Part shown: piece after piece, positions 731 to 62,815 of the stretch | Layout: each line of letters begins with the position of its first letter | Numbering within the stretch: the stretch's first letter is position 1 | Assembly: GCA_017471825.1 (NCBI GenBank) | Contig: JAFURQ010000007.1 | Span: 166,278 to 230,277 of the forward strand | Source: Clostridia bacterium | GTDB taxonomy: Bacteria > Bacillota > Clostridia > Oscillospirales > CAG-272 | Reading direction: 5' to 3' | DNA length: 64,000 nucleotides | The notes under the pieces: generated by a model | What the model saw: only the letters and a program-made list of their open reading frames with translations | What the model was told of the DNA's origin: nothing | Database searches by the model: none | Position numbers and translations under genes: made by a program

Positions 731-742
731 ATAATTTAACAC

Positions 743-776
743 GGGTCTGTGGCTTTCGTAAGATTGCCATAGACCC
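743..776 (+). other. Hairpin between dnaK and dnaJ
   Basis: GGGTCTGTGGC (743-753) pairs with GCCATAGACCC (766-776) with one mismatch. No T-run follows, so it is not an obvious terminator; it could be a processing or stability hairpin that sets the dnaK:dnaJ ratio. A copy of the dispersed ACACGGG motif overlaps its left arm (739-745). Confidence 0.5.
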
Positions 777-844
777 AAGTGGTTTAATAAACGAATGAAT
801 GAAAACATTTGTTTACAAAAACAACCCATTTTTAAGGAACGGCT

Positions 845-1984
845 ATGGCAGAAAACAAGAGAGATTATTATGAGGTGCTCGGCGTATCGAAGGGTGCCTC
901 GGCAGATGAGATAAAGAAGGCTTACCGAAGGCTTGCGAAGCAGTATCACCCCGATATGAACCCCGGTGATGCAACGGCAGAGGTCAAGTTCAAGGAGGTC
1001 AACGAGGCTTACGACGTGCTCTCCGATGAGGAAAAACGTCACAAGTACGACCAATACGGCCATGCGGCGTTTGACCCGTCGAGCGGCGGCGGACCCGGAT
1101 TTGGCGGATTCGGTGGCTTTGGCGGCTCCGATTTTGATTTCGGTGATATATTCTCCTCCTTCTTCGGCGGGGGATCTACCACGCGCTCAAATCGCAACGC
1201 GCCCGTAGCCGGTGACGACGTTGGAGTCAGGGTTACGGTAACCTTTGATGAGGCGGTGTTTGGCTGTAAGAAGGAGATTTCCTTTGCAAGAATTGAGGAG
1301 TGCCCTGAGTGTAATGCGACGGGTGCGGCAAAGGGAACAAGACCCGAAACCTGTAATCGCTGTCGCGGAAGCGGTACCGTTACCGTGCAGCAGCAGACGA
1401 TGCTCGGATATATGCAGACTCAGCGCGCCTGCCCCGAGTGCCGCGGAAGCGGTAAGATTATCAAGACGCCCTGCAAAAACTGTAACGGAAAGGCGTTTAT
1501 ACGCATAAACAAGAAGCTCGACGTTACCATACCTGCAGGAATTGACTCTATGCAGAGAATTATTCTGCGCGGTCAGGGCTCGGCAGGAAGAAACGGCGGC
1601 AGAGCCGGCGACCTTATTATTGAGGTGCGCGTCAAGGAGCATAAGATTTTCACAAGAAGCGGAAACAATATTTACTGTGAAATTCCGATTTCCTTTACCG
1701 AGGCGGCTCTCGGTGCTGAAATTGATATTCCCGTGCTTGGTGACAAGACCGAGAAATACACGATACCCGAGGGAACGCAGACCGGTACGACCTTCACACT
1801 TCGCGGAAAGGGTATTCCCGACGTTAATTCGAAGAAAAAGGGCGACCTCGTGATTACGGTTGTGGTGGAAACGCCAAAGGATCTGAATGCGGAGCAGAAG
1901 AAGCTTCTGGTCAAGCTTTCTGAGAGTCTTGGCGAGGATAACACAGGAAAGAAAAAGAGCTTTTTCAAGAAGATTTTTAACTGA
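845..1984 (+). CDS. dnaJ: Co-chaperone DnaJ (Hsp40)
   Basis: This 379-residue protein has the full type I DnaJ layout: a J-domain (residues 5-70) with the HPD tripeptide at 35-37, a Gly/Phe-rich linker (about 78-115), a zinc domain with four Cys motifs ([32 protein letters not shown]; about 150-215) and two C-terminal beta-sandwich domains. DnaJ delivers clients to DnaK and stimulates its ATPase. The fourth zinc motif ends GKA instead of GxG, a minor departure. AAGGAACGGCT supplies the ribosome binding site. Cotranscribed with dnaK or processed from the same message; a strong terminator follows. Confidence 0.97.
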
Positions 1985-2011
1985 TAATACGGAAAAAACG
2001 CAAAAAAACAG

Positions 2012-2046
2012 GCACCCGATTCGGAGCTTTCGAATCGGGTGCTTTT
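2012..2046. terminator. Bidirectional intrinsic terminator after dnaJ
   Basis: GCACCCGATTCG (2012-2023) pairs perfectly with CGAATCGGGTGC (2031-2042), followed by TTTT on the plus strand and a T-rich tract on the minus strand. It separates dnaJ from the convergent gene ending at 2100. Confidence 0.85.
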
Positions 2047-2099
2047 GTTGGTTATGGGGGCTTTGGGTAGGGGTGGAGCCTGCGACGTGCGGGGGCGTG

Positions 2100-2630
2100 T
2101 TAGATTTTACAGCTCGGGCATTTTGGCTCGGTAGCAAGGCGCGCCTTGCCGCACAGGGGGCAGACCGAGCATTTTGAGGCGGGGGATTTGCCCTCGGATT
2201 CAAGAATTACGGGAAATTCGGTAGAGCGTATGCGCAGAATTTTATCTCCGACCTCGTAGACGCCTGCAAGCTCGGCAGGGAGCTTTTTCAAAATGACGGT
2301 TTCTCTGTTATCGCACTTGACTGTGAGGGTGGTTGTGGTGACGGTGCGCTCGCCCGAGGATTTTGTGACGGTGCGCTTGTCGGTTATCTCACCCTTTATT
2401 TCGGTGGCGAAGATGGCGCGAGGGGGCTTTTTCTTCAAGAGCCCGACGAGAGTGGCGATTATCCAGACGAGAGCCACTGTGCCTGCTATTACGGCGACGG
2501 GGTTTTCTCGGAGAAGGATTACGGCGACTATTGCGGCGGCGATTATCACGGCGTAGACCGTGAGGGTTATTATGAAGTCGGTTTTGCGGTTTTTTGCCGC
2601 GTCCGTGTATTTTTGAATATCTTGCTGCAT
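2100..2630 (-). CDS. Membrane protein with C-terminal zinc ribbon
   Basis: Function not recognised. The 176-residue protein has a short charged N-terminus, two adjacent hydrophobic segments (about residues 20-40 and 44-64) forming a hairpin in the membrane, a soluble beta-rich domain, and a C-terminal zinc ribbon (CPLCGKA...CPSC, with a further CSVC just before). The middle domain repeats Thr-Val-Thr-type strands. The zinc ribbon would face the same side as the N-terminus, probably the cytoplasm. A GAAAGGGGC ribosome binding site and a TTGCAA-17-TAAAAT promoter precede it, so it is probably monocistronic. It is convergent with dnaJ. Confidence 0.7.
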   Translation of the reverse strand: MQQDIQKYTDAAKNRKTDFIITLTVYAVIIAAAIVAVILLRENPVAVIAGTVALVWIIATLVGLLKKKPPRAIFATEIKGEITDKRTVTKSSGERTVTTTTLTVKCDNRETVILKKLPAELAGVYEVGDKILRIRSTEFPVILESEGKSPASKCSVCPLCGKARLATEPKCPSCKI

Positions 2631-6416: not shown

Positions 6417-7754
6417 TTAGCTTGTGGCGGATAAAATGGCGGTGGAGAGGGAGTCGACTATTTCGCGGCAGGTGGACTCGCTCGGGTGCTCGACCATGAT
6501 GCGCACGACGGGCTCAGTTCCGCTCTTGCGAAGAAGGATTCGCCCCTCCCCGTGTAACGTTTTTTCGCATTCGGAGCGTGCTTTTACGACTGACGGGGCG
6601 TTTATGGCGGCGTCCTTATCGGGCACGCGGATGCTTTTGGTGAGATGGGGATAGCGGATGAGGTCTTTTGCGAGGGCGGATGCCTTGCCCTTGGATTCTA
6701 TCAGTATTTCCATAATTTTTATTGCGGTAATAAGGCCGTCGCCCGTGGTTGAATACTTTGAAAATATAATATGCCCCGATTCCTCGCCGCCGAGGGAGTA
6801 GCCGCCCTCGCGCATCTTCTCCCACACGAAGCGGTCGCCGACGTCGGTGAGAATGCATTTTATGCCTTCGTTTTCGAGGGATTTTACGAGTCCGAGGTTT
6901 GACATAACCGTGGTCACGACGGTGCCGTTATGAAGGTCGCCGTGGGATTTCATATATTTTGCGGCGAAGAAGAGGATATCCTCGCCGTTTATGACATTGC
7001 CGCACTCGTCTACGGCAAGGCATCTGTCGGCATCTCCGTCAAAGGCGAAGCCTATATCGAGGCTGTTATCTTTTACAAGGCGGCTCAGGGCTTCGATATG
7101 GGTGGAGCCGCAGTCGCGGTTGATGTTGGTGCCGTTTGGGGTATTGCCTATGACGAAGGTTTTTGCGCCGAGGGCATCGAAGATGCTTTTCGCGAGCATC
7201 CAGGTTGAGCCGTTGGCGGAGTCGATGCCGATTTTTATATTCTTATAGGAGTGGCGCGCACAGCCTATGACGTACCCCGTGTAACGATTTCTGCCCTGCG
7301 CGTAGTCTACGGTGCGGCCGATATTCTCGCCTTTTGCGAGGGGGATTTCTCCCTTACCGTCGAGGTATTCCTCGATTTTGTCGGTGAGGCCGTCGCTCAT
7401 TTTCTCGCCGTCGGAGTTTATGAGCTTTATGCCGTTATCGGTGTAAGGGTTATGGCTTGCGGAAATCATAATGCCGGCGTCGAAGTCCTCGCTTTTTGCC
7501 ACGAAGGCGACTGAGGGGGTGGTGGTGACGTGGAGAAGGTAGGCATCGGCGCCCGATGCGCAGATGCCTGCGGCGAGGGCGTATTCGAGCATATAGCTCG
7601 AGAGTCTTGTGTCCTTACCGATGACTATTTTGCTTTTTGTGCCTTTTTTGTTATAGTATGCGCCGAGGAATCTGCCGATTTTGTAGGCGTGCTCAACGGT
7701 GAGGGTGACGTTTGCTTCGCCGCGGAAGCCGTCGGTTCCGAAATATTTTCCCAT
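6417..7754 (-). CDS. glmM: Phosphoglucosamine mutase
   Basis: GlmM interconverts glucosamine-6-phosphate and glucosamine-1-phosphate on the way to UDP-GlcNAc for peptidoglycan. The 445-residue protein has the four-domain phosphohexomutase layout: KYFGTDGFRG at the N-terminus, the phosphoserine loop ISASHNP (about residue 100), the metal loop FDGDADR (about 240), the sugar-binding GGEESGH (about 325) and the C-terminal phosphate loop RKSGTEP. All key residues are present and the length is normal. It starts one base after the stop of the GlmU-like gene, sharing its GAGG ribosome binding site with that gene's last codons, so the two are one operon. Confidence 0.96.
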   Translation of the reverse strand: MGKYFGTDGFRGEANVTLTVEHAYKIGRFLGAYYNKKGTKSKIVIGKDTRLSSYMLEYALAAGICASGADAYLLHVTTTPSVAFVAKSEDFDAGIMISASHNPYTDNGIKLINSDGEKMSDGLTDKIEEYLDGKGEIPLAKGENIGRTVDYAQGRNRYTGYVIGCARHSYKNIKIGIDSANGSTWMLAKSIFDALGAKTFVIGNTPNGTNINRDCGSTHIEALSRLVKDNSLDIGFAFDGDADRCLAVDECGNVINGEDILFFAAKYMKSHGDLHNGTVVTTVMSNLGLVKSLENEGIKCILTDVGDRFVWEKMREGGYSLGGEESGHIIFSKYSTTGDGLITAIKIMEILIESKGKASALAKDLIRYPHLTKSIRVPDKDAAINAPSVVKARSECEKTLHGEGRILLRKSGTEPVVRIMVEHPSESTCREIVDSLSTAILSATS

Positions 7755-7755: not shown

Positions 7756-8427
7756 TTACATTACCTCGCGATTTTCTTTTTCAAGCACTACGCCCTCGCT
7801 CTTGAAAATTGAGTTTTCAGGGATATATCCGCGGACGCGGCAGAGGGGGTAGACGGTGGAATTTTTGGCGACGACGGTGCCGGGACAGAGGACGCTTCCG
7901 CATCCGACCTCGACCATATCACCGAGGGCGGCGCCGAATTTCTTGCGACCCGTGTGAATTTTTTCGCCGTTTTTGGTGACTGTGACCTCGCTTTTATCGC
8001 TTTTCAGATTTGAGGTAACGGCACCTGCGCCGAGGTGGGAGCGGTAGCCGAGTATGGAGTCGCCGACGTAGTTGTAGTGGGGTGCCTGTGCGCCGTCAAA
8101 GAAAATGCTGTTTTTTACCTCTGTTGAGTTGCCGACGACGCATTCCCTGCCTATGATTACGCCGCCGCGAAGAAAGGCTCCGTGGCGGATTTCGGCGCCC
8201 TCGCAAATGATGGTGGGGCCTGCAATGGCGGCGGTCTTTGCGAGCCTTGCATTTTTGGCTATCCAGACGTTTTTGATTGGCTCATAGAAGCGGTCCTTTG
8301 GCAGAGAGCCGCCAATTCTGAGGATATATTCCTTTATCATATCCAAGAGCTGCCACGGGTACTCGCAGGTATCGAGCAGACGGGCGGCTACGGTGTTTTC
8401 GAGTGAAAATAGTTCTTTGTTTTTCAT
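7756..8427 (-). CDS. GlmU-like left-handed beta-helix acyltransferase/nucleotidyl-sugar protein
   Basis: The 223-residue protein contains an extended hexapeptide repeat region (about residues 55-205: AAIAGPTIICEGAEIRHGA, VIIGRECVVGNSTEVKNS, AVTSNLKSD) that folds as a left-handed beta-helix. The block HYNYVGDSILG is the conserved acetyl-CoA/active-site loop of GlmU-type acetyltransferases. It lacks the N-terminal uridylyltransferase domain of full GlmU, whose length is about 455. Being cotranscribed with glmM suggests acetylation of glucosamine-1-phosphate or a related amino sugar. A hairpin (8437-8463) whose arm reaches the ribosome binding site may tune translation. Confidence 0.8.
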   Translation of the reverse strand: MKNKELFSLENTVAARLLDTCEYPWQLLDMIKEYILRIGGSLPKDRFYEPIKNVWIAKNARLAKTAAIAGPTIICEGAEIRHGAFLRGGVIIGRECVVGNSTEVKNSIFFDGAQAPHYNYVGDSILGYRSHLGAGAVTSNLKSDKSEVTVTKNGEKIHTGRKKFGAALGDMVEVGCGSVLCPGTVVAKNSTVYPLCRVRGYIPENSIFKSEGVVLEKENREVM

Positions 8428-11325: not shown

Positions 11326-14300
11326 TTATATACAGTCGAGCGTTTTTATTGGCAACGATTTGCCGATTGGGGTTGAGTATACGCTCACGGTCTTTGGCTT
11401 TTTGCCAAAGATTTTTTCTATTGCAAGGGTGTAATAGGTGAGCTGGAGGGCGTGCTTTTTTTGAAGGGCTGCCCGAGCAAGAGTGTGGTCTGAGAACTCC
11501 TCGCGCGTGAGGCGGTCGGTTTTGTAGTCCACGAGGTGATAGTTGCCCTCGGCGTCCTCGATTATGCAGTCGATAACGCCCTGCACGAGAATCTCCATAC
11601 CCGAGAGTGCGGAGCGCCTTTCGGCGTCCTCGGAGAAGTATTCGGCGGGGAGACTTGTATTGAAGCGGAACTCGCGCCACACGTTTTTGGCGTTTTTCAT
11701 TTCGGAGAAAAGCTTTGATTTTGCAAAAAGCTCGATTTCGCGAAGGCGGACGCGCTCCTTGTTGGCGGGCGAGAGGAAGCCGAGAGTACAGAGTCTGTCG
11801 AGCTCGCGCTCTGCGCCGTTTTCCTCGATTGATTGAAGGTCGCAGAACTGAAGCACCATGTGCGTGGCGATGCCTCGGCGTGCGCTTTCGTCGAGCTCCT
11901 CACCCGTGAAGAAGGACGGAAGGACTCGGCGCTCGTCGGGCTCGTCCACGGGGATTGAGGTACTCTCCTCGGTGCCGTCGAGGACGGCGGGGTAAAGACG
12001 GGATACCGACATTTTTTCGGGTAGGGTGGTTTTCTTGTCGTCGGGGTAGGTGAAGGTGAAGCGCTCGGCGAGAGTGGTGTAGACCTCGTGTGCCGAGGCG
12101 GTGGCTTTAGGCTTGTTTTTTTGATTGTTACCGGCACCCGTGTTGAGTTTTTTATCCGATTTGATGCTGTTTGCCTCCACAAATTCGACGGTTGCATCGG
12201 TTCCCGACGCCATAATTATGTCGAGGTAGGATTTGAGCTTGGTGAGTCCGTAGGGGGAGAGGGCAGAGGATTTGATTCTGATATCTCTTTCATAATCCTC
12301 GAGGCTGTCGTATTCGAGGTTGCCTACGACGAAGAGCTCCTCTCTGGCACGGGTGAGGGCAACGTAAAGGACGCGAAGCTCCTCCTCGTAGAATTTCTCG
12401 TTCATGCGCTTGCGAATTATGTGCTGGACGGGATTTCTGACCATACAAAGACCGTCGGGCTCGCGCAGGTAGAAGGACACGCCGTAGCCCTCGGAGTAGG
12501 CGACGCGCGCGGTGAGGTCTATATTGTGAAGCCTGCGAGATGCCTCAGCGAGAAAGACTATCGGATATTCAAGTCCCTTTGAGGAGTGGACGGTTACGAT
12601 TTTTACCGAGTCGGAGTCGCTGACCTTATTATCTCCGTCCTCGAGTCCTTCGTCCTTTGCCGCTACGTTGTTGACGTAGTTGATGAAATTATAAAGTCCC
12701 TTGAAGGACGAGCCCTCAAATTTTCTTGCGTAGTTGTAAAGGAGCATAAGGTTTTCCTTGCCGCCGTGCTTTGAGGCGAGGGCGAGGAGTCCTGTTTCGG
12801 AATAGAGCCTGTATATGAGTGCGTCGACGTTCATACCCTCGGCAAGACATCTGTAATGCGCGAGCGAGGTGAGGAAGTGGGAAAGCTTTGCATCGTTGGG
12901 GGTTTCCTCACTGTATTTGCGAATAGATCTATATAGGGTTGAGTCGGGGGCGCTTATGCGGTATTTTAACAGGTCGTCGGCGGTGAAGCCGTAGAGGGGC
13001 GAGCACATAAGGCCTGCGAGGTAGACGTCCTTTGAGGGATTGTCTATCGCGTTGAGCAGGCAGAGGGTGAGGAGCACCTCGGAGTTCATAAAGAAGCCCG
13101 ATGAGTTCGGGGTTTCGTAGGGAATGCCGAGCTTGGTAAGCGCCTCGGCGAAGGAGTCTATGCCGTCCTTTTTTCGCACGAGAATGGCGATGTCAGAGTA
13201 CTTTATCCCGTCGCCGTTTTTGAGGGTGCCATTGGGTACAAGCTCCTTGATTTTTTGGGCTATGAACTGCGGCTCGAGGGTGTTTTCAAGCTCCTCCTCG
13301 CCGAGTGCGTCATCGGAAATCGGCTTCTCGAGAATGAAGATTTTCGCCGGGGTGTAGGGCGGAATTACGCCGTTCTTATAAACCTTGGAAAAGGCGAGAG
13401 CGTCCTCGGGCATATAGCCTATGCTTTCCTTCACGATAGAGAACATACGGTCAAATACGGTGTTTACGAATTTGATTATACCCTCGTCGCAACGGAAATT
13501 CTTTGACATAAAAATCGAGGCTCCGAGGCTTTTGTCCGCACCCGTGTCAAGTTTTGGGAAGTTGGTTTTCATTTCTGCGAAGATTTCGGGCTTTGCGGAG
13601 CGGAAGCTGTATATACTCTGCTTTATATCACCGACCATAAAGCGATTGTTGCTCGAGATTGCGGAGAAGATAGCGTCCTGCAGGGCGTTTACGTCCTGAT
13701 ATTCGTCTATGTAGACCGAGGTGAGCCGCGAGGCGTATGCCTTGGCAATGTCGGTGATTGTGCCGTCGGGATTATAGAGGCACTCGTAGGTGTAGCGCGA
13801 CACGTCGGCGTGCTCGAGCATTCCGCGGCGGAGCTTTTCCTGCATATAAATCCCGTCGAATTTTATTATAAATTTCGAGAGGACGGTGAGCATAGAGTGC
13901 ATCTCGGAGAAGAGCGTGCGCCACTCGTCCTCGGTATATACGAAATAGTCCTCGTAGATTTTGTCGAGGGCTTTTTTGATTTCGGTAAAGCGCTCGCGGC
14001 AGAAATCAAGCTCCTCGGTGTGCGCGTCCTTCGGGCATTTCGGTATTTTGGGAAATTCTATCGAGGAAAGCGCGAGGCGAAGCGAGGCGTAGGTGGTATT
14101 CTCGGCGAGGGCGGAGATTATGTCGGCGTAGGTGAGGTAAGCCTCACCGTCGAGCCTCTCGTTTTCGGTACCGTCCGAAAGCTCCCTTGCAAGAGCCCTT
14201 GTGACGTCGGCGTAGTATTTTATCATACCGTAGACGAAGGTCATAAGGTCGCGGCCGTAGGGTACATTTTCAACCGCAAACGGCTCGCTTTGGTTATACA

Positions 14301-14922: not shown

Positions 14923-15816
14923 CTATACGTCAAACTGCTTTATTGGCTTGATTGCGGTACCCGTGTCAAATTCTCTTACCTCGCCAACCGCGAAGAAGCT
15001 CTTGTCGTCAAAGAGAGCCACGCGTGTGCCAAGGGGGAGTGATACCGAGATTTTTTTGGTATATATTTCGACTCCGCACCGAGCAAGACGGGCGAAGAAG
15101 GGGGAGAGGGTGATGCCCTCGAGGTCAGCGAATATTTTTTCGGTGGGGATAAGCACGGCGGCTCTTTGTTCCTCGCTCATTTCCTCAAGCTGTGCGAGGG
15201 TGTGGGCATCGCTTACGGTGAAGCCTGCGCACTTGGTGCGCTCGAGGGTCTTCATAACCGCGCCGCATCCGAGGGCGGCGCCTATATCGGCGCAGAGGGT
15301 GCGGATGTAGGTACCCTTGGAGCAGTGGACGGAGAGTGTGTATTCTCTGTCGTTTATTCGGGTGGCGGTGATGCTGTGAATGAATACGTCGCGCGGCTCG
15401 CGCTCGACGGTTTTGCCCTCGCGGGCAAGCTCGTAAAGCTTTTTACCGTCCTTTTTGATTGCCGAATACATCGGGGGGACCTGCTTTGATGCGCCGAGCA
15501 TTGCGCGGACAGCCGCCTGCACCTCGGGCTCACTTGGGATTTTATCGGATTCTGTGAGGGTCTCGCCCGTTATATCCTCGGTGTCGGTGGTAAGACCGAG
15601 AAGGAGGGTGGCACAGTAGTGCTTATCCTCTGTTATCATATACTCGCTTGCCTTGACGGCGCGGCCTATAAGCACGGGCAGAACTCCCGTTGCGAGAGGG
15701 TCGAGGGTGCCTGTATGACCTGCCTTTTGCGCGCCGAAAAGACGCTTGACACGGTTGACTGCGCCCTGCGAGCTTATATTTTCGTCCTTATAGAGTATAA
15801 CCACTCCGCTCTTCAT
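14923..15816 (-). CDS. truB: tRNA pseudouridine-55 synthase
   Basis: TruB makes pseudouridine 55 in the T-loop of all tRNAs. The 297-residue protein has the motif HTGTLDPLATGVLPV with the catalytic Asp (about residue 41), KHYCATLLLG and a C-terminal PUA-like domain. The length is normal. The start has a GGAGT ribosome binding site. It is followed closely by addA, nine bases after its stop, so the two are cotranscribed; in many Bacillota truB instead follows rbfA, which here sits in a different operon at 53.2 kb. Confidence 0.95.
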   Translation of the reverse strand: MKSGVVILYKDENISSQGAVNRVKRLFGAQKAGHTGTLDPLATGVLPVLIGRAVKASEYMITEDKHYCATLLLGLTTDTEDITGETLTESDKIPSEPEVQAAVRAMLGASKQVPPMYSAIKKDGKKLYELAREGKTVEREPRDVFIHSITATRINDREYTLSVHCSKGTYIRTLCADIGAALGCGAVMKTLERTKCAGFTVSDAHTLAQLEEMSEEQRAAVLIPTEKIFADLEGITLSPFFARLARCGVEIYTKKISVSLPLGTRVALFDDKSFFAVGEVREFDTGTAIKPIKQFDV

Positions 15817-20318: not shown

Positions 20319-20344
20319 ATTATAAAATGTGACACGGGGTGCTG

Positions 20345-30184: not shown

Positions 30185-30210
30185 AAAGAAAAAACCATAT
30201 GAGGAAAGAT

Positions 30211-35881: not shown

Positions 35882-35894
35882 TGGTAACGGTAAT

Positions 35895-35942: not shown

Positions 35943-35969
35943 AAAAAGCTCCCGTGTGGGAGCTTTTTT
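35943..35969. terminator. Bidirectional terminator between the GH-G-like gene and pflB
   Basis: AAAAAGCTCCC-GTGT-GGGAGCTTTTTT. The loop and arm include a copy of CCCGTGT (35951-35957). Confidence 0.85.
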
Positions 35970-38112: not shown

Positions 38113-38175
38113 AAAAACTCCTGTTATTTTGTTACACGGGTAGGGGTGTAGTGGGTTGTATGGGGTAAAATTTAA

Positions 38176-38940: not shown

Positions 38941-39024
38941 TTTTTCCCTCCAATCATATCTTATTTACTTGATTATAGCATAAAAACGGGGGCGTGTAAA
39001 GAAAAAACAGAAAAAAGCCTTATA

Positions 39025-40987: not shown

Positions 40988-41061
40988 TGGCAGCGGAACT
41001 AGGATTCGAACCCAGACATACAGAGTCAGAGTCTGCTGTGCTACCTTTACACAATTCCGCT
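40988..41061 (-). tRNA. tRNA-Gln (anticodon CTG)
   Basis: Read on the minus strand: acceptor AGCGGAA pairs with TTCCGCT, then G and an encoded CCA. The D-arm is GTGTAAAGGTAGCAC, the anticodon stem GCAGA/TCTGT with loop CTCTGAC, giving anticodon CTG for the Gln codon CAG, and the T-arm contains GGGTTCGAATC. A sigma-A promoter (41260-41288) and a strong terminator (40953-40987) define the transcription unit. Between promoter and tRNA lies a broken copy of the 5' half of the same tRNA. Confidence 0.93.
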
Positions 41062-44453: not shown

Positions 44454-44512
44454 ATATTGTAGGCAGGACGTAATTGTGCCTGCCTTCCTTAGACTACATT
44501 TGGAGAAAGACC

Positions 44513-48083: not shown

Positions 48084-49034
48084 TTAATTGGAAAGGCGGT
48101 TGTCCTTGCCTCCGAAGAGAAGGATTATCGAATCCTTACCCACTATGCGCGAGTAGATTCTGTCCTCGTATTTGCGGGAGAGCTCTTCGGGCGAGAGATT
48201 CGTGGAGATTATGGATGCGAGCCCCTTATTAAGTCTGGTGTTAAGCAGATTGTAGAGGCAGGAAACGGTGAATTGATTCACAAACTCGGTGCCGAGGTCG
48301 TCGATTATAAGGAGGTCGCACTCCATATACTTTTCGCCCTTGGGCTCGTAGGGGCCGTAGCCGCTTCTGAAGCGGTCCTGCTCAAATGCCGAGATGATGT
48401 TCTGCGCGGAATCGTAGAGAACCTCGTAGCCACGCTCTATGACCGTTTTTGCAATGGCGGTGGAAATATGGGTTTTTCCCGTTCCCGTCGGGCCTATAAG
48501 AAGGAGATTCTTAGTTTCCTCGGTGCTACCGAAATTATCGGCGAAGCCGCGTGCGACGCTGTAGTTACGTGCCATTCTCTTTCTTACGGTTTCATCCTCG
48601 TATTTTGTGAGGTCGAAGTTCTCGAAGGACTGCTTCTCGATAAGGTTGCCGATGCCCGAGGAGCGAATGTTTTCCTTGAGCAAGAGCTCGCGGAAGCAGG
48701 AGCACATACCCGTACCCGTGTAACCTGAATCGGAGCAAAGGGGGCAGGTGTATTTAACCTCGGTGTAGTCCTCGGGATAGCCGAGTGCCTTGAGGACCTT
48801 GCGCCTTTTTTTGACAAGCTGTGCGTTTCTTTCTCTTATGGGGGTGATATCCCGTCCCTCGCAGGCGGTTTTGAAAAGAAGGAGTCCTGTGCCTACAAGC
48901 TCGTCGTCGATTTCTCTTATTTCATCGGACTCGAGTCTTACCTCTGCGTTTCTTGCATCAGCCTCGGCAATTGCCACAAGACGTCTTGACTCTATTTCGT
49001 TTTTTACCTTCTGGTAATTTTCATATCCGTACAT
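48084..49034 (-). CDS. Helicase loader, DnaC/DnaI-type ATPase
   Basis: The 316-residue AAA+ protein has an N-terminal helical region, a small zinc cluster (CPLCSDSGYTGTGMCSC, about residues 95-111), Walker A GPTGTGKTH (about 180), Walker B LLIIDDLG (about 240) and sensor ISTNLS. It loads the replicative helicase at origins or stalled forks. It is the last gene of the long leftward operon, right after dnaD, which fits a primosomal pair. A copy of the ACACGGG motif lies in its zinc-cluster codons. Confidence 0.9.
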   Translation of the reverse strand: MYGYENYQKVKNEIESRRLVAIAEADARNAEVRLESDEIREIDDELVGTGLLLFKTACEGRDITPIRERNAQLVKKRRKVLKALGYPEDYTEVKYTCPLCSDSGYTGTGMCSCFRELLLKENIRSSGIGNLIEKQSFENFDLTKYEDETVRKRMARNYSVARGFADNFGSTEETKNLLLIGPTGTGKTHISTAIAKTVIERGYEVLYDSAQNIISAFEQDRFRSGYGPYEPKGEKYMECDLLIIDDLGTEFVNQFTVSCLYNLLNTRLNKGLASIISTNLSPEELSRKYEDRIYSRIVGKDSIILLFGGKDNRLSN

Positions 49035-49052: not shown

Positions 49053-50039
49053 TCAATCTGTCGTTTCGTCTGTGCCGTAGCTACGCTCGAGTGCCTTTGC
49101 AAAGGCGTCCTCGACGTCAAAGTCGCCGTAGCGGAGGGGTGTTTTTTCTGCTCTCTTGCCGCGCGGTGCGGGCTTTCTATATTCTGCGCTCAATTCCGCA
49201 GCCCTTCTCTCGTGCTCAGCGTTGCAGTCGTCGACGGTTTTGCATCCTGCCTCGTGCCAGCTGACGAGAAGCTTGTTCATATAAGAGTAGGAGAGCTCTC
49301 CGCAGGCATCGACCGTGTAATTGAAGGCGGCGAGAAGTATCTTTTCACCAAAGCCAAACTCGTCCACCCATCTTTTTATGTACATTCTCTGATTGTCTGT
49401 CAGAATGGGGTTCTTGATACGGAAGGTTTTTATAAACATACGCTCGGACGAGGTTATGCTGTCCTGCGCTTTTATGTAGTCGTCGAGGTCGTCTGAGGAG
49501 AGTATTCCATGCTTTACAAGAGCTCTTGCCTTGTTGTAAATTTTTGATACCGTAACCTTGCCCTTATCCTTCATCCAGCCTGCGAGGTTGATTATATAAT
49601 CCTCCTCAAGTCCCTCGTCCTCATAGAGCTCGGAGATTTTTTTAATCTCGCTTCTTTCGAGGGTTGGCTTTTCGATTATACCTGCGATAATCTCAAAGAG
49701 CTCCTTCAGGTTGTTATCTCGTATGCTTTTGACAAGCTCGACGGCGGTTTTTTCATTGTCGTCAAATATGCCGCTGTCCTCAAATTCCTCGGTAACGGTG
49801 GGGGGCGTGTCGTTTTTTTTCTTGCTTGCGGCGGAGATAACTCCCGAATCCTCCCAGAAAACGAGCGATGCTCTGGCGCGTGCCGCCGAGGTTGAGGCGA
49901 GCCTTGCAATCGCGTTCTGCGAATCCACTCTGCCCTCAAGGCTTATAACGGCAAGAAGGACGCGGAGCTCCTCTGCTGTGGCTTCCTTGAAGTCCATATT
50001 GTCATTAAGGCTCGAAAGGTTGATTTTATATTCAGTCAT
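49053..50039 (-). CDS. DnaD-domain primosomal protein
   Basis: The 328-residue protein has two helical DnaD/DnaB2 repeats (about residues 105-185 and 200-285). The second contains RMYIKRWVDEFGFGEKILLAAFNYTV and YSYMNKLLVSWHEAG, the typical YxxxIxxxW motif form. N-terminal residues resemble a winged helix (AEELRVLLAVISLEGRVDSQNAIARLASTS-type). DnaD proteins remodel DNA at the origin and recruit the helicase loader encoded next door. It starts inside the rex gene, overlapping by eight bases with a GAGGAGG ribosome binding site. Confidence 0.88.
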   Translation of the reverse strand: MTEYKINLSSLNDNMDFKEATAEELRVLLAVISLEGRVDSQNAIARLASTSAARARASLVFWEDSGVISAASKKKNDTPPTVTEEFEDSGIFDDNEKTAVELVKSIRDNNLKELFEIIAGIIEKPTLERSEIKKISELYEDEGLEEDYIINLAGWMKDKGKVTVSKIYNKARALVKHGILSSDDLDDYIKAQDSITSSERMFIKTFRIKNPILTDNQRMYIKRWVDEFGFGEKILLAAFNYTVDACGELSYSYMNKLLVSWHEAGCKTVDDCNAEHERRAAELSAEYRKPAPRGKRAEKTPLRYGDFDVEDAFAKALERSYGTDETTD

Positions 50040-50748: not shown

Positions 50749-51822
50749 TTATTTTGAATCCTCTGCGCTCGCGTTGAGCGAGGAGTCGCTTATATTGCCG
50801 GACATATATTCGTAGTATCCCGCAACCGCTATCATAGCCGCGTTATCGCCGCAAAGAGAGCGCTCGGGGACGTGAAACGTCACGTTATTCTTTTTTGCCA
50901 CCTCTGCAAGACGTGCGCGAAGGTGAGAGTTTGCGGCAACACCGCCCGATACGGCAAGTGAGCAACCCGGGTGTGCCTTGATGGCGGCATCGAGCTTCTT
51001 TGCAACCGCTTCAACCGCCTCGTAGGTGTACCTCGCCGCAAAAAGCTCGCGGTCTATTTCCTCGCCTCTTTGCTCGTATCTGTGAAGCAGATTTATCGCT
51101 GCAGTTTTTAGTCCCGAGAAGGAGAAATCGAGCGTTCCGTCGGGGATAGCAGGGGAGGGGAGCGTCATATCGGCATTCTTGTACGCCGCGCTTTTCTTGT
51201 AAAGTGAATAAAAATTATCCTCGCTTCCCGTTGCCTTTATAAATCCGCTACGGGCGAGCGCGTCGAAGCCTGCGCCTGCGGGGTAGGGTATTCCTATAAT
51301 TCTGCCTATCTTGTCAAAGGATTCGCCTATAGCGTCGTCGCGCGTTGCGCCGATTACCTCAACACCCGTGTAAGATTTTACAAGGTAAATCGAGGTGTGG
51401 CCGCCCGATGCCGCAAGAGCGATGAATGGCGGTGTCGGAGCGTCTATGCCGAGATAGCAGGCGGCAATATGCCCCTTTATGTGATCCACCGCAACGAGAG
51501 GAATTTTATTTGCCGCGGCAAGAGCCTTAGCAAAATTCACACCGACGAGAAGGGCTCCGATTAGCCCCGGATTTGCCGTTACGGCAATGACGTCTATGCT
51601 CGAAAGCGCGGTTTTTGCCACGTCAAGCGCCTCGTAGGTTATACGCGAGATTGCCTCAATATGCGCGCGGCTGGCAATTTCGGGAACGACACCGCCGTAG
51701 AGCCTGTGCGTTTCTATCTGCGAGGCTACAATATTCGATTTTATCTCAAAGCCCGACTCGGTCACGCTGACGACGGCGGCACTCGTTTCATCGCACGAGC
51801 TTTCAAATGCAAGTATGTTCAT
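50749..51822 (-). CDS. tsaD: tRNA N6-threonylcarbamoyladenosine transferase
   Basis: TsaD transfers threonylcarbamoyl to A37 of ANN-decoding tRNAs. The 357-residue protein has the ASKHA fold: LAFESSCDETSAAVV, SRAHIEAI with the metal-binding His pair, ALAASGGHTSI, DKIGRIIGIPYPAG and LAVSGGVAANSHLR. Length is normal. It follows rimI in the operon; tsaB and tsaE are not in the window. Rex follows 15 bases downstream. Confidence 0.95.
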   Translation of the reverse strand: MNILAFESSCDETSAAVVSVTESGFEIKSNIVASQIETHRLYGGVVPEIASRAHIEAISRITYEALDVAKTALSSIDVIAVTANPGLIGALLVGVNFAKALAAANKIPLVAVDHIKGHIAACYLGIDAPTPPFIALAASGGHTSIYLVKSYTGVEVIGATRDDAIGESFDKIGRIIGIPYPAGAGFDALARSGFIKATGSEDNFYSLYKKSAAYKNADMTLPSPAIPDGTLDFSFSGLKTAAINLLHRYEQRGEEIDRELFAARYTYEAVEAVAKKLDAAIKAHPGCSLAVSGGVAANSHLRARLAEVAKKNNVTFHVPERSLCGDNAAMIAVAGYYEYMSGNISDSSLNASAEDSK

Positions 51823-54306: not shown

Positions 54307-55349
54307 ACCGCGGCTTCGTCAAGAAGTTGGTTGATAAACTCGCCGCGTGAAAGCCCCATATCCTCCGTCATAGCGGGATAAAGGCTTGAATCGGTCATTC
54401 CCGGAATGGTGTTTATCTCGTTGAAATAGATGCCGTCATCTTCCGTCAGGAAGAAATCAATTCTCGCTATATGGCGAAGCCCTATTGCCTCGCCGAGCTT
54501 GCGCGCGTAGCGCGCGATTTCTGCTCTTTTGCCCACTTGGGCCGCCCCGTGTGAAATTTTGAGAGCCTTTTCGCCCTTGTATTTCGCGCCGAAGCTGTAA
54601 AATTCACCGTCGGTGTGTGCTGTTCCGCTCGCGAGGTAAAGCTCTTGCCCCCCAAGCTCGAGAAATGCACATTCGACCTCACAGGCAACCGACAGCCGTT
54701 TTTCGATAAGAATTTTGTCCGAATACCGCTTTGCCTCGGCGTATGCCGCCTCGAAGCCTTCGGCATTCTCTGCAACCGCCGCGCCGATAGAGCTGCCGAG
54801 CTCTGCCGGCTTTATAAACATGGGGTAGGGGAGTCTGCGCTCAGCGAGAGCGCGTGCCTCGTTCGCGCCTAAGTCAACGGCGCAAACCCAATCGGCAACG
54901 GGTATGCCGAGGTGCTCGGCAATTATTTTAGTAAAAACCTTGTCGGCACAGACGGCGCTTGCGCCGACTCCGCAACCAACGTAGCTGATGTGCGCCGTGT
55001 CAAGCGCACCCTGAACTCTTCCGTCCTCGCCGTAGCTTCCGTGCAAAACGGGAAGCGCGACGTCAACGGGTAAAAGCTCGCCGTTTACAAAAAAGCCGCT
55101 TTTTCCGTCTAGCCTTACGGGATAGGTCGGAGTTCCGCTATCAAGCGGGGCACCGTCCTCGAGCATGAGCCAATCGCCCGACGGCGATATGTAAATCGGA
55201 AAAACCGAAAAACGCTCACGGTCTATTGCCCGAAGGATGTTTTTTGCGCTCAACTCGGAGATATGGCGCTCCGGCCCCTCTCCGCCAAATATAAGAGCGA
55301 CGTTCTTTTTCGTATATACCACCTCCGTTCGAGGTGGTTTTGAAATCAC
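54303..55349 (-). CDS. ddl: D-alanine--D-alanine ligase
   Basis: Ddl joins two D-alanines for the peptidoglycan stem. The ATP-grasp protein has LIFGGEGPERHISELSA, LPVLHGSYGEDGRVQG, MFIKPAELGSSIGA and YFNEINTIPGMTDSS. The frame from a GTG at 55349 encodes 348 residues, but that start has no good ribosome binding site; GGAGG (about 55323-55327) lies eight bases before an in-frame ACG, giving the typical Ddl beginning (M/T)KKNVALIFGG. A hairpin ACCACCTC/GAGGTGGT overlaps that site. Start codon therefore uncertain. Confidence 0.94.
   Translation of the reverse strand: MISKPPRTEVVYTKKNVALIFGGEGPERHISELSAKNILRAIDRERFSVFPIYISPSGDWLMLEDGAPLDSGTPTYPVRLDGKSGFFVNGELLPVDVALPVLHGSYGEDGRVQGALDTAHISYVGCGVGASAVCADKVFTKIIAEHLGIPVADWVCAVDLGANEARALAERRLPYPMFIKPAELGSSIGAAVAENAEGFEAAYAEAKRYSDKILIEKRLSVACEVECAFLELGGQELYLASGTAHTDGEFYSFGAKYKGEKALKISHGAAQVGKRAEIARYARKLGEAIGLRHIARIDFFLTEDDGIYFNEINTIPGMTDSSLYPAMTEDMGLSRGEFINQLLDEAAV
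55318..55345 (-). promoter_or_regulatory. Hairpin over the ddl ribosome binding site
   Basis: On the minus strand AACCACCTC pairs with GAGGTGGT across GAACG, burying GGAGG. Another AACCACCTC copy lies upstream near the prmC stop, allowing alternative pairing. Confidence 0.5.
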
Positions 55350-58157: not shown

Positions 58158-60053
58158 TCATTCGCCGATTTTTACAGCCTTGAATTCATCGCCGAGAAGA
58201 TAAAGATAGCTGTCGATGCAAACGCTTCTTTTTCTTTCGTTATCGCCCTTGAGTGCCTCGTCAAGCAGCAGGTGAAGCTGATAGCCGTCAAAATGGAGAA
58301 GGATATATCTGCTGTTATCGCCGGAGCTCCACATATTCGTAATTCCGATTCCTATGAGAGATGGCTCTCTGTTGATATAGTAGGATTTGTAATCTGTGGA
58401 AAAGCTCGTCATTTCTCTTTCAAATTTGCAAACCGAGATAACGCCGCTCTCACCTTCCTCATACACCTCTACCTTGAGGGTTGAGGTAGAGGAGCCGTAG
58501 CCTATGCCGAGAAGATAACCGCCGCCGAGGTTTACAAGAGAGGATGAATATCCGTCTATCGTCCCTGTATCCTTGTAGGTTATGTTGTTAATATCTGACA
58601 GGTCGAAGAAGAAAACGGGGTCGGTAAGCTGTACCGAGGTACAAACGTACGCGCTATCGCCGTCAAATCTTACAGAGCGAACAACCTCTCCCCAAGGAGC
58701 GAAGGCTTCAACACTTGATATGATTTCAAGGGAGTCGGTGCTTATGCAGTAAAGGCTTGCGTTGGTGCCCGAGCGGACGGTGGTGTCGGCAGATGCGTAA
58801 TATCCGTCGGTGTAGCAGACCGATTGTCTAGTCGTGGTAACGACTCTTAACACGTTTTCATTTTGGTCGAGGCTGTACTGATTGTTTACGTATCCGTCAA
58901 CGGTAATGCTTCCGAGAAGCGACAGACCGCTCTCACCGTATGCAATGCGTGATATATCGGTCACGGTTTTGCTTATGCCGTAGCCCTCGCAGGATTCGCT
59001 TTTTGAGTCTGTTCGGGTTGCGTAAACCGAATCGCGTGACACGTACACTTCGTCGGAATAGGAGACCAGAGCCATTGATTCGGTGGGCTCCGTAGCGTCG
59101 GGGTCAAGCATTGTGATTACCGTGTATTTCAGCGACGTCGGAACGTCGGGACAGACAATATTATCGGCAGGAATCAGCTTGAGACCGCACCCCGTGTCAA
59201 TTTGCGGCACGAAGGTTTCCGGATTTTCAAAGTCGGGCTTTGATGGGCGGTAATTCGAAATAAGGAGTAATTTGCCGTCAACCATACGCGAGCTGACGTA
59301 AGAGCCGAGCAGTGTGGTGCGGCTCTTTATTTTCATTGCTTCGGGGGACGAAACGTCGAGCGAGAATATAGCGATGCTCGCCCCGTAAAATGAATCGCTG
59401 AAGGGGGCAACGACCGTTGCAGTCTTGCAGTCCTCGGAAAGATACATACCGTAATTACCGTAGTAGCAATACGAGGAGTCCGGGATTTTAAGCTCGCAGG
59501 AGCCCACCATACGGGACGCTTCCTTTTCTATCGAATACGCGCAAAGGATACCGCTTGAGTTGAGGTAAAAGATATGTGTACTGCTTCGCTTGATGGCATC
59601 TGCTTCAATTACACCCTCAACCTGATTGTCGGTTACCTCCTCGTATTGTGACGATGACTCTCCGTTTGATGTGCTTCCGTTCGTTTCCAGACCGTATTCG
59701 GGCATCTGGTCTGCACCTGCCGCAAAATCCGCGTCAACCATTCCGCCAAGGGTAATGTCGCCGAAGAATTTATCGAAATTATTGTCGTATTCGGGCTCAT
59801 CGGCATATAGGGGGGCGAGCTTTACAATAAGACTGTAGTAGTCGCTTCCCTTATACTGCTCGGGGTCAAGAGTTATCATTCGAAACGGCAAAAACAGCCA
59901 AAGCGAAAGCCCTGTAACCAGCACGGCAATGCAAGCCGCCACGGCAACGAATTTTTGCCATTTTATGCCGTGTTTTTTGACACGGGGGGCCGCCTCATCA
60001 ATATATTCGCCGTTTATTTCTCCAACAGCTCTGATGAAATCATCGTTTTTCAT
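58158..60053 (-). CDS. Membrane-anchored beta-propeller protein, likely anti-sigma partner
   Basis: Starting at the ATG at 60053, which overlaps the sigma gene stop (ATGA), the protein has 631 residues. A cytoplasmic N-terminus (about residues 1-38: DDFIRAVGEINGEYIDE) leads to one transmembrane segment (about 42-60), a Ser/Asn-rich linker and a large extracytoplasmic C-terminal beta-propeller of the COG4880 type, with repeated FYLNSSGILCAYS, LPIDTGCGLKLI-like and YLYLLGDEF strands. The coupling to an ECF sigma factor suggests it holds the sigma factor at the membrane and senses an outside signal. Confidence 0.85.
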   Translation of the reverse strand: MKNDDFIRAVGEINGEYIDEAAPRVKKHGIKWQKFVAVAACIAVLVTGLSLWLFLPFRMITLDPEQYKGSDYYSLIVKLAPLYADEPEYDNNFDKFFGDITLGGMVDADFAAGADQMPEYGLETNGSTSNGESSSQYEEVTDNQVEGVIEADAIKRSSTHIFYLNSSGILCAYSIEKEASRMVGSCELKIPDSSYCYYGNYGMYLSEDCKTATVVAPFSDSFYGASIAIFSLDVSSPEAMKIKSRTTLLGSYVSSRMVDGKLLLISNYRPSKPDFENPETFVPQIDTGCGLKLIPADNIVCPDVPTSLKYTVITMLDPDATEPTESMALVSYSDEVYVSRDSVYATRTDSKSESCEGYGISKTVTDISRIAYGESGLSLLGSITVDGYVNNQYSLDQNENVLRVVTTTRQSVCYTDGYYASADTTVRSGTNASLYCISTDSLEIISSVEAFAPWGEVVRSVRFDGDSAYVCTSVQLTDPVFFFDLSDINNITYKDTGTIDGYSSSLVNLGGGYLLGIGYGSSTSTLKVEVYEEGESGVISVCKFEREMTSFSTDYKSYYINREPSLIGIGITNMWSSGDNSRYILLHFDGYQLHLLLDEALKGDNERKRSVCIDSYLYLLGDEFKAVKIGE

Positions 60054-60610: not shown

Positions 60611-60690
60611 ACCGTCACCTCCTTGCTTTGTCCTTCATACATAAAGACAGATTTTGGAATAAAAAGGTTACATAAATCTTGAAAAAATCA

Positions 60691-60720
60691 AAAAATCCCG
60701 AAGAAGCCCACGGGATTTTT
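60691..60720 (-). terminator. Terminator of the DUF308 gene
   Basis: AAAAATCCCG...CGGGATTTTT with a ten-base loop; T-rich on both sides. Confidence 0.75.
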
Positions 60721-60726
60721 GGAAAA

Positions 60727-61416
60727 TTATTCATCGCTTGCGCTATCCTCGGCAGTCTGCTCGACATCGGGAGTCTGTGACTCTGCGGATTCGTCGTTCG
60801 AGTCCTCCTCACCGTCGGTTGAGCTATCTGATTCACTTTCGGTTGCGGGGCAGCTTTCGGCGATGAAATCGCGCTTCCGGCACTTTTCGACCTCGGTAAG
60901 AAAGAATGCCGAAAGAAAGTTGGACACGGCATCAATGATGAAAATTATACCGAGAAGAATCGAGGTTGTCGTGACGTTTTCAGGGGGATATTTTATCATA
61001 AAGAAGCCGCTTGCTATTACCGTGACCGAAATTGCGAGGATAACCCACCAGAGCGGAAGGGAATATCGCTTTGACATAACCGTAGTGTTGAGCTTGAACG
61101 AAGCATCAACGATAAGCAAGAGGCTGAAGATTGAAACGAGAATTTCAACCGTTCCTTCGTTAAATATTGCGGTCACAACGCCGCCTATCAAGGCGATAGC
61201 CGCAAAAAATATTTTGAAGCCGAAGGCAAAGCCGCGATTCTTGTCCGCAAGCGTGACTATGCCGAAGATTATGCCGGAAACGGCAAGCAGACAGCCTATC
61301 GTTATAGCGAGTGCGACGAGCGCGTTGCTCATTGCAATAAGACACACGCCAACGGCGATGAGTCCGAGTGTGATAACCATATAGCCCCATTTGAAGCTCT
61401 TTAATTTTTTAAGCAT
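60727..61416 (-). CDS. DUF308/HdeD-like membrane protein with acidic tail
   Basis: The 229-residue protein has six hydrophobic segments in three hairpin pairs (about residues 12-175), as in the HdeD/DUF308 family, and a Glu/Asp/Ser-rich tail of about 40 residues (SESDSSTDGEEDSNDESAES). HdeD of E. coli helps acid tolerance but the function here is unknown. AAGGAGGC is the ribosome binding site; it follows the MATE exporter by 15 bases and is probably cotranscribed. Confidence 0.85.
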   Translation of the reverse strand: MLKKLKSFKWGYMVITLGLIAVGVCLIAMSNALVALAITIGCLLAVSGIIFGIVTLADKNRGFAFGFKIFFAAIALIGGVVTAIFNEGTVEILVSIFSLLLIVDASFKLNTTVMSKRYSLPLWWVILAISVTVIASGFFMIKYPPENVTTTSILLGIIFIIDAVSNFLSAFFLTEVEKCRKRDFIAESCPATESESDSSTDGEEDSNDESAESQTPDVEQTAEDSASDE

Positions 61417-61431
61417 TTATTTGCCTCCTTT

Positions 61432-62763
61432 TTACATATAATTGTACTTTTTGCGGTTTGCAAAAATAAATATCAGGGTAGTTACAAAGGCGAGAACCTC
61501 TGCAATCAGTGTTGAGAACCACACGCCGTCAAGACCCCAGACAGCAGGGAGAATGAGTATCAGGAGCATCTGAAAAACGAGCGTACGCATAAAGGATATT
61601 ATTGCCGAAATGAGCCCGTCGTTGAGCGCCGTGAAGAACGAGGAGCCGTAAATGCAGAAGCCCGAGAAAATGAACGAAAATGCGAAAATTCGGAACCCGT
61701 GTGACGTCATTTCAAGCAAAGAGACGCTTCCGTTCGCGAAAACCGTAGATAGCGGGCGCGCCAGAACGAACGCGAGAGTGGTCATTATTGCACCTGCGAC
61801 GAGGTTAACGACAGTGCTTTTGCGCAACAGGCTTTTAAGCTCGTCCGTGTTTTTTGCTCCGTAATGATAGCCCACGATTGGGGCAGTACCTATTGCGTAG
61901 CCGATAAGCATAGCGATAAATATGAAGCCAACGTACATTATAGCGCCGTAGGCGGCTACGCCGTCCTCTCCAACGAGCTTCATAAGCTGCATATTATAGA
62001 GCATAGTAACCACCGAGGCGGAAACGTTGCTCATAAGCTCAGAGGAGCCGTTGGTTGTCGCTCGCAGGAGTGCTTTGCCGTAGAATTTGGTGCGAGTGAA
62101 GCGGAGAAGGCCGGAATTTTTTCTTGAAAAATAGAAAAGAGGAACGAGCCCGCCGACTGCCTGGCTGATAGACGTGGCGAGTGCCGCGCCCTCAAGACCG
62201 ATGGGGATAACCGCAACCAAGAGTGCATCGAGCACCATATTCGTAACTCCCGCGGCAACAGTTACCGCGAGCCCGAGCTTCGGCTTTTCCGCAACGATGA
62301 AGAAGCTTTGGAAAAGGTTTTGAAGCATAAAAAACGGCATTGCCGCAACAACAATTCTTCCATAACGGACGCAAGCCTCGAAAAGTGCTCCGTCTGCGCC
62401 GAGAAAAGCAGAAAGCGGTCTTAAAAATATCACTCCAAGTGCTGCCATAACGGCACCTGCCGTCGCGGTCACGATAACGAAAAGGGTGAAGTACTTGTTT
62501 GCGAGCTCACCGTCGCCCTCGCCGAGCGTTTTTGCCACGATAGCAGTACCGCCCGCACCCATCATAAAGCCGAGCGCGCCGATGATCATAAAAATAGGCA
62601 TTATAAGGTTGACTGCCGCGAACTCGGTGGTTCCGACGAATTCCGAAACGAAAATTCCGTCAACAACGCCGTATATTGAGGAAAAGACCATCATTATAAC
62701 CGACGGTGCGGCAAATTTAAAGAGCTTGCCGTACGTGAAATGGTCAGATAAGCGAATTGCCAT
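61432..62763 (-). CDS. MATE-family efflux transporter
   Basis: The 443-residue protein has twelve transmembrane segments in two related halves. KFAAPSVIMMVFSSIYGVVDGIFVSEFVG at the start, FMMGAGGTAIVAKTLG and FALPLLYFSRKNSG-type segments match MATE transporters of the DinF/MepA kind. It exports drugs or metabolites using a Na+ or H+ gradient. AAGGAGATAT gives the start. It precedes DUF308. Confidence 0.93.
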   Translation of the reverse strand: MAIRLSDHFTYGKLFKFAAPSVIMMVFSSIYGVVDGIFVSEFVGTTEFAAVNLIMPIFMIIGALGFMMGAGGTAIVAKTLGEGDGELANKYFTLFVIVTATAGAVMAALGVIFLRPLSAFLGADGALFEACVRYGRIVVAAMPFFMLQNLFQSFFIVAEKPKLGLAVTVAAGVTNMVLDALLVAVIPIGLEGAALATSISQAVGGLVPLFYFSRKNSGLLRFTRTKFYGKALLRATTNGSSELMSNVSASVVTMLYNMQLMKLVGEDGVAAYGAIMYVGFIFIAMLIGYAIGTAPIVGYHYGAKNTDELKSLLRKSTVVNLVAGAIMTTLAFVLARPLSTVFANGSVSLLEMTSHGFRIFAFSFIFSGFCIYGSSFFTALNDGLISAIISFMRTLVFQMLLILILPAVWGLDGVWFSTLIAEVLAFVTTLIFIFANRKKYNYM

Positions 62764-62815
62764 TATATCTCCTTAAAATAGGGTTGCTACAATCAAATGC
62801 AGCAACCCGTGTCAA

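Follow-up and report, generated by a model that had tools for sequence, protein, structure and literature searches.

A dispersed asymmetric DNA motif with helically phased flanks in one clade of Clostridia-like bacteria

Why does the short word ACACGGG occur so often in one stretch of a Clostridia bacterium chromosome, and what could it be for? The stretch, referred to here as the window, comprises 64,000 nucleotides (GenBank assembly GCA_017471825.1, contig JAFURQ010000007.1, positions 166,278 to 230,277). A sequence-only reading of it had claimed about 30 dispersed copies on both strands. We found 32 exact copies of ACACGGG/CCCGTGT, 12 on the plus strand and 20 on the minus strand. The mean of 100 dinucleotide shuffles was 4.01 and the largest shuffle gave nine. 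The claimed excess is therefore real, although two copies had been overlooked and one was given a wrong position (see the table). The flanking bases claimed to be common to the copies were also recovered, with T two bases upstream of the core in 26 of the 32 copies and G or T directly after it in 28; T was found three bases upstream in 18. The 16 bases said to be identical around the cores at 31055 and 54545 are indeed present (AAAATTTCACACGGGG). The cores lie sense in three frames, antisense or between genes, and enrichment is highest outside genes (see below), which bears out the view that protein function does not explain them. No Rfam families were found at the motif sites in the window.

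The genome that contains the window (G000) is a 1.63-Mb draft assembly, 89.8% complete and in 33 contigs; all genomes compared in this study were drafts. TTNACACGGGK occurs 112 times in it, 61 times forward and 51 times reverse, whereas the reversed pattern occurs two and zero times. Thus, the absence of strand bias suggested by the sequence-only reading extends to the whole genome. That reading had also proposed counting words against a Markov model. In a 464-kb sample of the genome (the window and 20 stretches), ACACGGG was seen 128 times, far above the 38.6 expected from an order-2 model, and TTGACACGGG was seen 25 times against 0.7 expected. Similarly, there were 34 copies of TTNACACGGGT against 0.7 expected. 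Single changes to TTNACACGGGT were near chance (about one copy) at most positions, the exceptions being the final T to G (20 copies) and the first T (2, 5 and 9 copies). Among 7-mers, ACACGGG was not the most extreme by the order-2 model and codon-type words scored higher; among 8-, 9- and 10-mers, words of the motif headed the lists. The core of the previously proposed consensus TTBACACGGGK is real, but the true consensus is wider. In 66 intergenic copies it is approximately AAAAYTTNACACGGGKNGGGNYTWW, with further A/T tracts on either side at intervals of about one helical turn, and a second core type, ACACGCCCC, carries the same phased flanks. Palindromic relatives of the ACACGGG-type 11-mers showed no enrichment. 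ACACGGG is thus the core of a real, dispersed, genome-wide motif at the DNA level. No report of it appeared among the listed literature matches on uptake sequences in Firmicutes or Gram-positives, the word ACACGGG and over-represented motifs in Clostridia, as far as the matched text of these open-licence papers goes.

The flanks were analyzed in 348-354 ACACGGG sites pooled from 14 species, with the motif-rich AddA stretches of G060, G013 and G029 left out. To the left and right of the core, the A+T content oscillates with the helical period; the signal is clear within about 60 bp and weak farther out. In 354 sites, A+T peaks lie near -7, -17, -27 and -39 and near +15, +24, +35 and +46, with G+C peaks between them. 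Comparatively, 42,779 sites of composition-matched control 7-mers gave a flat A+T content near 0.50. Harmonic fits gave periods of 11.3 on the left (-60 to -9) and 9.9 on the right (+12 to +60). The A+T profile points to no single centre of symmetry: the mirror correlation was 0.83 about both +9 and +14.5 and 0.46 about +4. Phasing was seen in intergenic (66) and genic (280) sites and was stronger in the former. The 66 intergenic sites have AAAA at -8 to -5, TT at -3/-2, a G-rich segment at +9 to +11 and A/T at +14 to +16, and further A/T blocks at -19 to -14, +23 to +26 and +33 to +36.

A template built from other species, with the core and nearest tracts excluded, gave z = 10.7 on the 128 sites of the own genome, and ACACGGG ranked first of 13,380 7-mers for its match to the phase template of other species. 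The second core type ACACGCCCC had a mean flank score of 3.09 (52 sites), compared with a background of -5.33. The score of ACACGGG was 5.36, but this value comes from a matrix built on ACACGGG itself, and the cross-species template is the independent test. One-base variants of the core (ACACGGT, TCACGGG, ACAAGGG and others) had mildly raised flank scores, a hint that the core works jointly with its flanks. The flanks of ACACGTG, ACCCGGG and the reversed word GGGCACA were not phased. In the larger motif-poor set (33 sites in 556 kb, including G005 with 11 full motifs), the far flanks gave a weak signal (z = 2.5) and the near flanks z = 0.7; the smaller set comprised seven sites in 288 kb. Judged from sequence, the flanks look like the signature of a protein that would read a strict asymmetric core and bend or wrap the DNA around it.

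Genes in the 464-kb sample were called by a simple script. Its 54 copies of TTNACACGGGK comprised 25 sense, 20 antisense and nine intergenic ones. For the 14 motif-rich species pooled, we used all other 7-mers of composition A2C2G3 as the control. Enrichment was highest in the gaps between convergent genes, at 3.95-fold (23 sites, P = 1.6e-8), followed by those between co-directional genes, at 2.07-fold (36 sites); the ratio was 1.01 for divergent pairs (seven sites) and 0.89 within genes (281 sites). The sequence-only reading had named a count near expectation, or enrichment in codon contexts alone, as grounds for giving up the motif; neither was found. In the same species, copies tend to avoid each other at short range. 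Only 11 pairs were less than 200 bp apart, against 21.3 by chance, and 0.7% of simulations were as low.

Across 69 congeners and the own genome, the number of TTNACACGGGK copies ranged from 0 to 203. The sequence-only reading had suggested examining conservation in related genomes, and the motif itself is indeed shared. Motif-rich genomes (16-203 copies) numbered 24 of the 70 and clustered in one clade. Site positions in AddA mostly differ between species, although a few codon positions are shared. The motif has persisted across a wide sequence divergence, as the main AddA segments of the congeners share 34-51% identity with the own protein. When AddA sequences of 41 congeners were arranged in a tree, three changes sufficed for the 22 motif-rich rows, fewer than in any of 500 shuffles. 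On the midpoint root, a shortest history has one gain and two losses, one in G014 and one in the group of G012, G022, G031, G059, G075 and G076, whose own support in the tree is modest. A history with one gain, one loss and one regain is equally short. In the motif-poor congeners, ACACGGG had 33 copies in 556 kb, compared with about 102 for the average control 7-mer, and no other dialect of the motif was visible in six of these species (k-mers of two; flank scan of all six, 288 kb). In a sample of 295 genomes from the whole order, no other came near the own genome in copy number, and a few had 10 to 14 copies. A genome from another family of the order (G195) had 28 copies of TTNACACGGGK and one of the reversed control, possibly an independent appearance.

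Does the motif follow the position on the chromosome? The contig that contains the window (C30) carries a set of genes like that of an origin, with dnaA-, dnaN-, recF-, gyrB-, gyrA-, parB- and parA-like members (assigned by eye from translations; gyrA and parB were also matched by profile), and its GC skew flips near 155 kb. As the window starts at 166 kb of C30, it is origin-proximal. The best match to a consensus of the dif site had seven mismatches of 28. In stretches with an absolute GC skew above 0.02, 35 sites were oriented with the leading and 39 with the lagging strand, the skew being an imperfect proxy for replication. ACACGGG occurs 84 times in the 230 kb of C30 and 10 times in the 121 kb of contig C26 of the same genome. 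C26 has mostly housekeeping genes by eye, a G+C content near 0.44 and almost no full motif. It is probably not contamination, since its tetranucleotide make-up matches that of other own contigs. In seven motif-rich species, the ComEC-parC region, which lies on C26 in the own genome, had one copy (control mean 10.1) and the AddA region 46 (control 22.8; P = 1.4e-6). These totals exclude G023, which is represented only by its ComEC-parC stretch, without a copy. G061, motif-rich overall, has one copy in its AddA stretch. Because ACACGGG is also low where the motif is absent, the ComEC-parC region should be regarded as unenriched rather than purged. These differences suggest a regional control of motif density.

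We consider a role in chromosome handling (nucleoid folding, topology or positioning) the likeliest function, tentatively and as a hypothesis only, with a tag for self DNA as its close rival. Among the functions offered by the sequence-only reading, a chromosome-handling site fits the phased flanks. Each copy would be a double-stranded recognition site for a putative protein that probably occurs in only one clade of this genus. Its target would be the strict asymmetric core (TTNACACGGGK or the variant carrying ACACGCCCC), and it would bend or wrap about 60 bp on either side, aided by the A/T tracts about one helical turn apart. This reading draws on the phasing to both sides of the core and its agreement with the template from other species, its greater strength in intergenic sites, the raised flank scores of one-base variants, the enrichment between convergent genes, the short-range avoidance and the regional differences in density. 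The motif, its flanks and its distribution are computed results, whereas the bound and wrapping protein is deduced from them. It is possible, though doubtful, that the sites form a clade-specific, genome-wide address system, in which hundreds of copies of a fixed word would be read by a putative protein that wraps the DNA around itself. The inferred gain and losses within the clade provide a natural comparison for finding the reader, a gene expected in the 24 motif-rich genomes and absent from the poor species.

Several observations weigh against a chromosome-handling role. No reader was found among HU, ParB-domain and GyrA candidates. HU (PF00216) was single-copy wherever it was found (48 of the 69 congeners and the own genome), which speaks against an IHF-like HU paralogue. 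A ParB/Noc paralogue was rejected too, because ParB-domain proteins do not track the motif and a second weak match is limited to four rich species. GyrA/ParC family genes were present in all 69 congeners and the own genome. The GyrA of 16 congeners, rich and poor, shared 77-86% identity with that of the own genome. No GyrA column separated 11 rich from six poor species (the row of G071, in a wrong reading frame with 21% identity, was not in the compared groups). A gradient from origin to terminus was hinted at in the own genome (rho = 0.45 with skew; partial r = 0.16 after G+C) but not in G016, whose 494-kb origin contig has 14 sites and no origin peak. As the origin-near density of the own genome was not reproduced there, a simple origin-terminus organisation is not supported. 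The regional differences described above may reflect sequence constraint. In addition, counts per stretch were over-dispersed (chi2/df 1.68), exact copies outnumber those with a single change, a pattern that fits a tag driven by transfer better than sites selected singly, and the own genome has an estimated contamination of 5.23%. Separately, we noticed a second weak ParB_N-like protein at G000:C21:2662-2934. Similar hits (E 1e-18 to 1e-20) were confined to three other motif-rich genomes, G023, G060 (two) and G002.

It is extremely improbable that codon usage, composition, terminators or a family of repeats gave rise to the motif as a by-product. One sense frame (Asn/Asp/Tyr/His-Thr-Gly) is favoured in the own sample, by 46 of 60 sense copies, as a by-product of coding would predict; the same preference would also arise if coding constraint limited the places in which genes can accommodate the motif. 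A codon or composition artefact is rejected on the strength of the k-mer model, the spread over sense, antisense and intergenic positions and the higher enrichment between genes than within them, and it would hardly leave the reversed pattern at two copies in the genome or the motif wanting in many congeners. Terminators are rejected as its source, as perfect stems hold two of the 23 copies between convergent genes and 21 lie outside them, and a known RNA family is disfavoured by the result at the window sites given above. A self-DNA tag deserves more weight, although we regard it as rather unlikely. Here a DNA-bending receptor would give preference, in import or transfer, to relatives' DNA that carries the tag, and the tag would build up as this DNA recombines. 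Such tags are described for Pasteurellaceae and Neisseriaceae. The Pasteurellacean uptake signal sequence (USS) is described as a 9-bp core followed directly 3′ by an A/T segment, in which A's precede T's, and roughly one turn later by another, occurring about once per kb without orientation bias, with somewhat regular spacing, a non-coding preference and an unusually strong consensus (PMC1626085). Read on the other strand, the present motif has the same layout: a core, a run of A's giving way to T's, and another A/T tract roughly one turn further along. Its over-strong consensus, lack of strand bias, non-coding preference, short-range avoidance, clade-wide persistence with losses and second core type fit as well. 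Thus, the uptake sequence proposed by the sequence-only reading agrees in layout and statistics. The machinery agrees less well. ComEC (PF03772) was found in 53 of 69 congeners, including all 22 high-quality congener genomes, but rich and poor alike, so it does not set them apart. Uptake in such systems is described as started by a type IV pilus machine (PMC7811141). Our test of the competence pilus consisted of its PF00437 ATPase alone, other pilus genes not being searched for. Among the best 24 candidates per genome, a full PilB/ComGA-type ATPase (E < 1e-130) was found in 10 of 70 genomes. Nine of these are motif-poor, which leaves one of the 24 rich genomes, even though completeness is as high as 98% among them. 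The negative association falls short of significance (Fisher P = 0.15). Other PF00437 matches, including that of the own genome, were partial and weaker. Moreover, the phasing extends to either side of the core and farther than is described for USS.

It is unlikely that the sites are strong DNA gyrase sites, in which gyrase would cleave within the segment that holds the core and the GyrA C-terminal domains would wrap the phased arms. Gyrase sites of E. coli are described with a 130-bp pattern of 10.75-bp G+C periodicity (PMC6379681), and all gyrases compared in PMC12324340 show a 10-11 bp periodicity. The phasing span here is similar to the E. coli pattern, and enrichment between convergent genes fits places of positive supercoiling. 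However, the G+C phasing of about 130 bp at gyrase sites is reported around a symmetric, degenerate centre with palindromic preferences (PMC6379681, PMC12324340, PMC12393610), and the core here is strictly asymmetric. That ACACGTG and ACCCGGG are unphased and their matching 11-mers unenriched is contrary to the prediction for a two-fold symmetric enzyme, and no GyrA column tracks the motif. In a weak test, the annotated gyrase site of phage Mu scored high, ranking 18 of 73,122 (smoothed profile) or 124 (raw profile), but lay about 32 bp off the register of the profile. It is very unlikely that the motif serves AddAB as a Chi-like regulatory site in recombination. Of the 69 congeners, 68 gave an AddA match, in a few cases a weak one, but species that lack the motif retain AddA as well. 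The length of the motif, its G-rich 3′ end and its spacing are within the range of Chi. The lack of a leading-strand excess stands against a strand-guiding site and against the Chi-like site that the sequence-only reading had entertained, though not every known Chi is skewed. The helically phased A/T tracts suggest double-stranded recognition. A guiding sequence of the KOPS type was rejected because orientation, judged by the GC-skew proxy, does not follow replication, and an iterated palindrome of the HIP1 type because ACACGGG is non-palindromic and its palindromic relatives are unenriched.

Table 1. Copies of the motif cores in the window (positions of the 64,000-nucleotide stretch)
Feature	Position	Strand	Basis
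ACACGGG, intergenic, full consensus aataatttaACACGGGt	739..745	+	exact match
ACACGGG, sense in gene 6417-7754	6549..6555	-	exact match
ACACGGG, sense in gene 6417-7754	7276..7282	-	exact match
ACACGGG, sense in gene 7756-8427; absent from earlier list	7949..7955	-	exact match
ACACGGG, AddA-like gene (Asn-Thr-Gly)	12137..12143	-	exact match, domain search
ACACGGG, AddA-like gene (Asp-Thr-Gly)	13541..13547	-	exact match, domain search
ACACGGG, sense in gene 14923-15816	14960..14966	-	exact match
ACACGGG, antisense in SpoIIE-domain gene 16124-18481	17338..17344	-	exact match, domain search
ACACGGG, sense in SpoIIE-domain gene 16124-18481	18022..18028	+	exact match, domain search
ACACGGG, sense in alpha-L-fucosidase-like gene 19044-20276	19630..19636	+	exact match, domain search
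ACACGGG, intergenic between convergent genes, strong flanks	20332..20338	+	exact match
ACACGGG, antisense in gene 21419-22909	22620..22626	+	exact match
ACACGGG, sense in gene 23604-24632	24259..24265	-	exact match
ACACGGG, sense in gene 27863-30064	29529..29535	-	exact match
ACACGGG, antisense in rhamnosidase gene 30199-32400	31056..31062	-	exact match, domain search
ACACGGG, antisense in rhamnosidase gene 30199-32400, without upstream A/T tract; absent from earlier list	31712..31718	-	exact match
ACACGGG, sense in rhamnosidase gene 30199-32400	31931..31937	+	exact match, domain search
ACACGGG, sense in pyruvate formate lyase-like gene; earlier given as 33940	33930..33936	-	exact match, domain search
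ACACGGG within terminator-like inverted repeat	35951..35957	-	exact match
ACACGGG, antisense in gene 35971-37188	36918..36924	+	exact match
ACACGGG, intergenic	38134..38140	+	exact match
ACACGGG, sense in gene 44474-45292	44987..44993	+	exact match
ACACGGG, sense in gene 45289-45846	45362..45368	+	exact match
ACACGGG, sense in U32 peptidase-family gene	46515..46521	+	exact match, domain search
ACACGGG, antisense in U32 peptidase-family gene	47268..47274	-	exact match, domain search
ACACGGG, sense in gene 48084-49034	48715..48721	-	exact match
ACACGGG, sense in gene 50749-51822	51365..51371	-	exact match
ACACGGG, sense in gene 54303-55349; 16 bases common with 31056 copy	54546..54552	-	exact match
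ACACGGG, sense in gene 58158-60131	59191..59197	-	exact match
ACACGGG, antisense in gene 58158-60131	59980..59986	+	exact match
ACACGGG, sense in gene 61432-62763	61696..61702	-	exact match
ACACGGG, intergenic	62806..62812	-	exact match
Second core type ACACGCCCC	2092..2100	-	exact match
Second core type ACACGCCCC	38989..38997	-	exact match
Second core type ACACGCCCC	49802..49810	-	exact match

The copy at 35951, in its terminator-like inverted repeat, is probably a chance copy. The window also contains a ZTP riboswitch (RF01750) at 35811-35890 on the minus strand, overlapping the start of the pyruvate formate lyase-like gene, and a tRNA at 40991-41061 on the minus strand. In the 464-kb sample, CTAG is avoided about ten-fold (78 on both strands; ratio 0.095), and GGCC, CATG, GATC and CCGG are likewise low.

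How does the motif compare with known systems? It resembles the USS of Pasteurellaceae in its strict, short, asymmetric core, its A/T segments about one turn apart and its sharing across a clade with core variants, besides the statistical features discussed above. It differs in density, since the bare core occurs at 27.6 per 100 kb here, about a quarter of the USS frequency of about one per kb (PMC1626085), in having flanks phased on both sides and in the pilus ATPase being found in one of 24 rich genomes. The phage Mu strong gyrase site and the E. coli gyrase motif share the helically phased alternation of A+T and G+C on both sides and a comparable span; the present motif has a strict asymmetric core and occurs in one clade only, although GyrA is universal in the genus. 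Like the Chi sites of AddAB and RecBCD, it is a short, asymmetric, G-rich word spread over the chromosome, but it showed no replication-strand bias and has double-strand bending features in its flanks. Nucleoid-occlusion sites of Noc and SlmA are also dispersed, with densities that differ between regions, whereas the present motif is non-palindromic, has no origin-centred pattern in G016 and is not accompanied by a clade-wide ParB-family paralogue. A tag-like motif with wrapping flanks in Clostridia-like bacteria, mostly with no detected pilus motor, would point to another route of self-DNA exchange or to an undescribed sequence-specific architecture protein. If there is an address system of the kind outlined above, which is conceivable rather than probable, it would, in bacteria mostly without a detected competence pilus motor, unite a strict word that spreads itself, as in an uptake tag, with arms that wrap DNA, as at a gyrase site.

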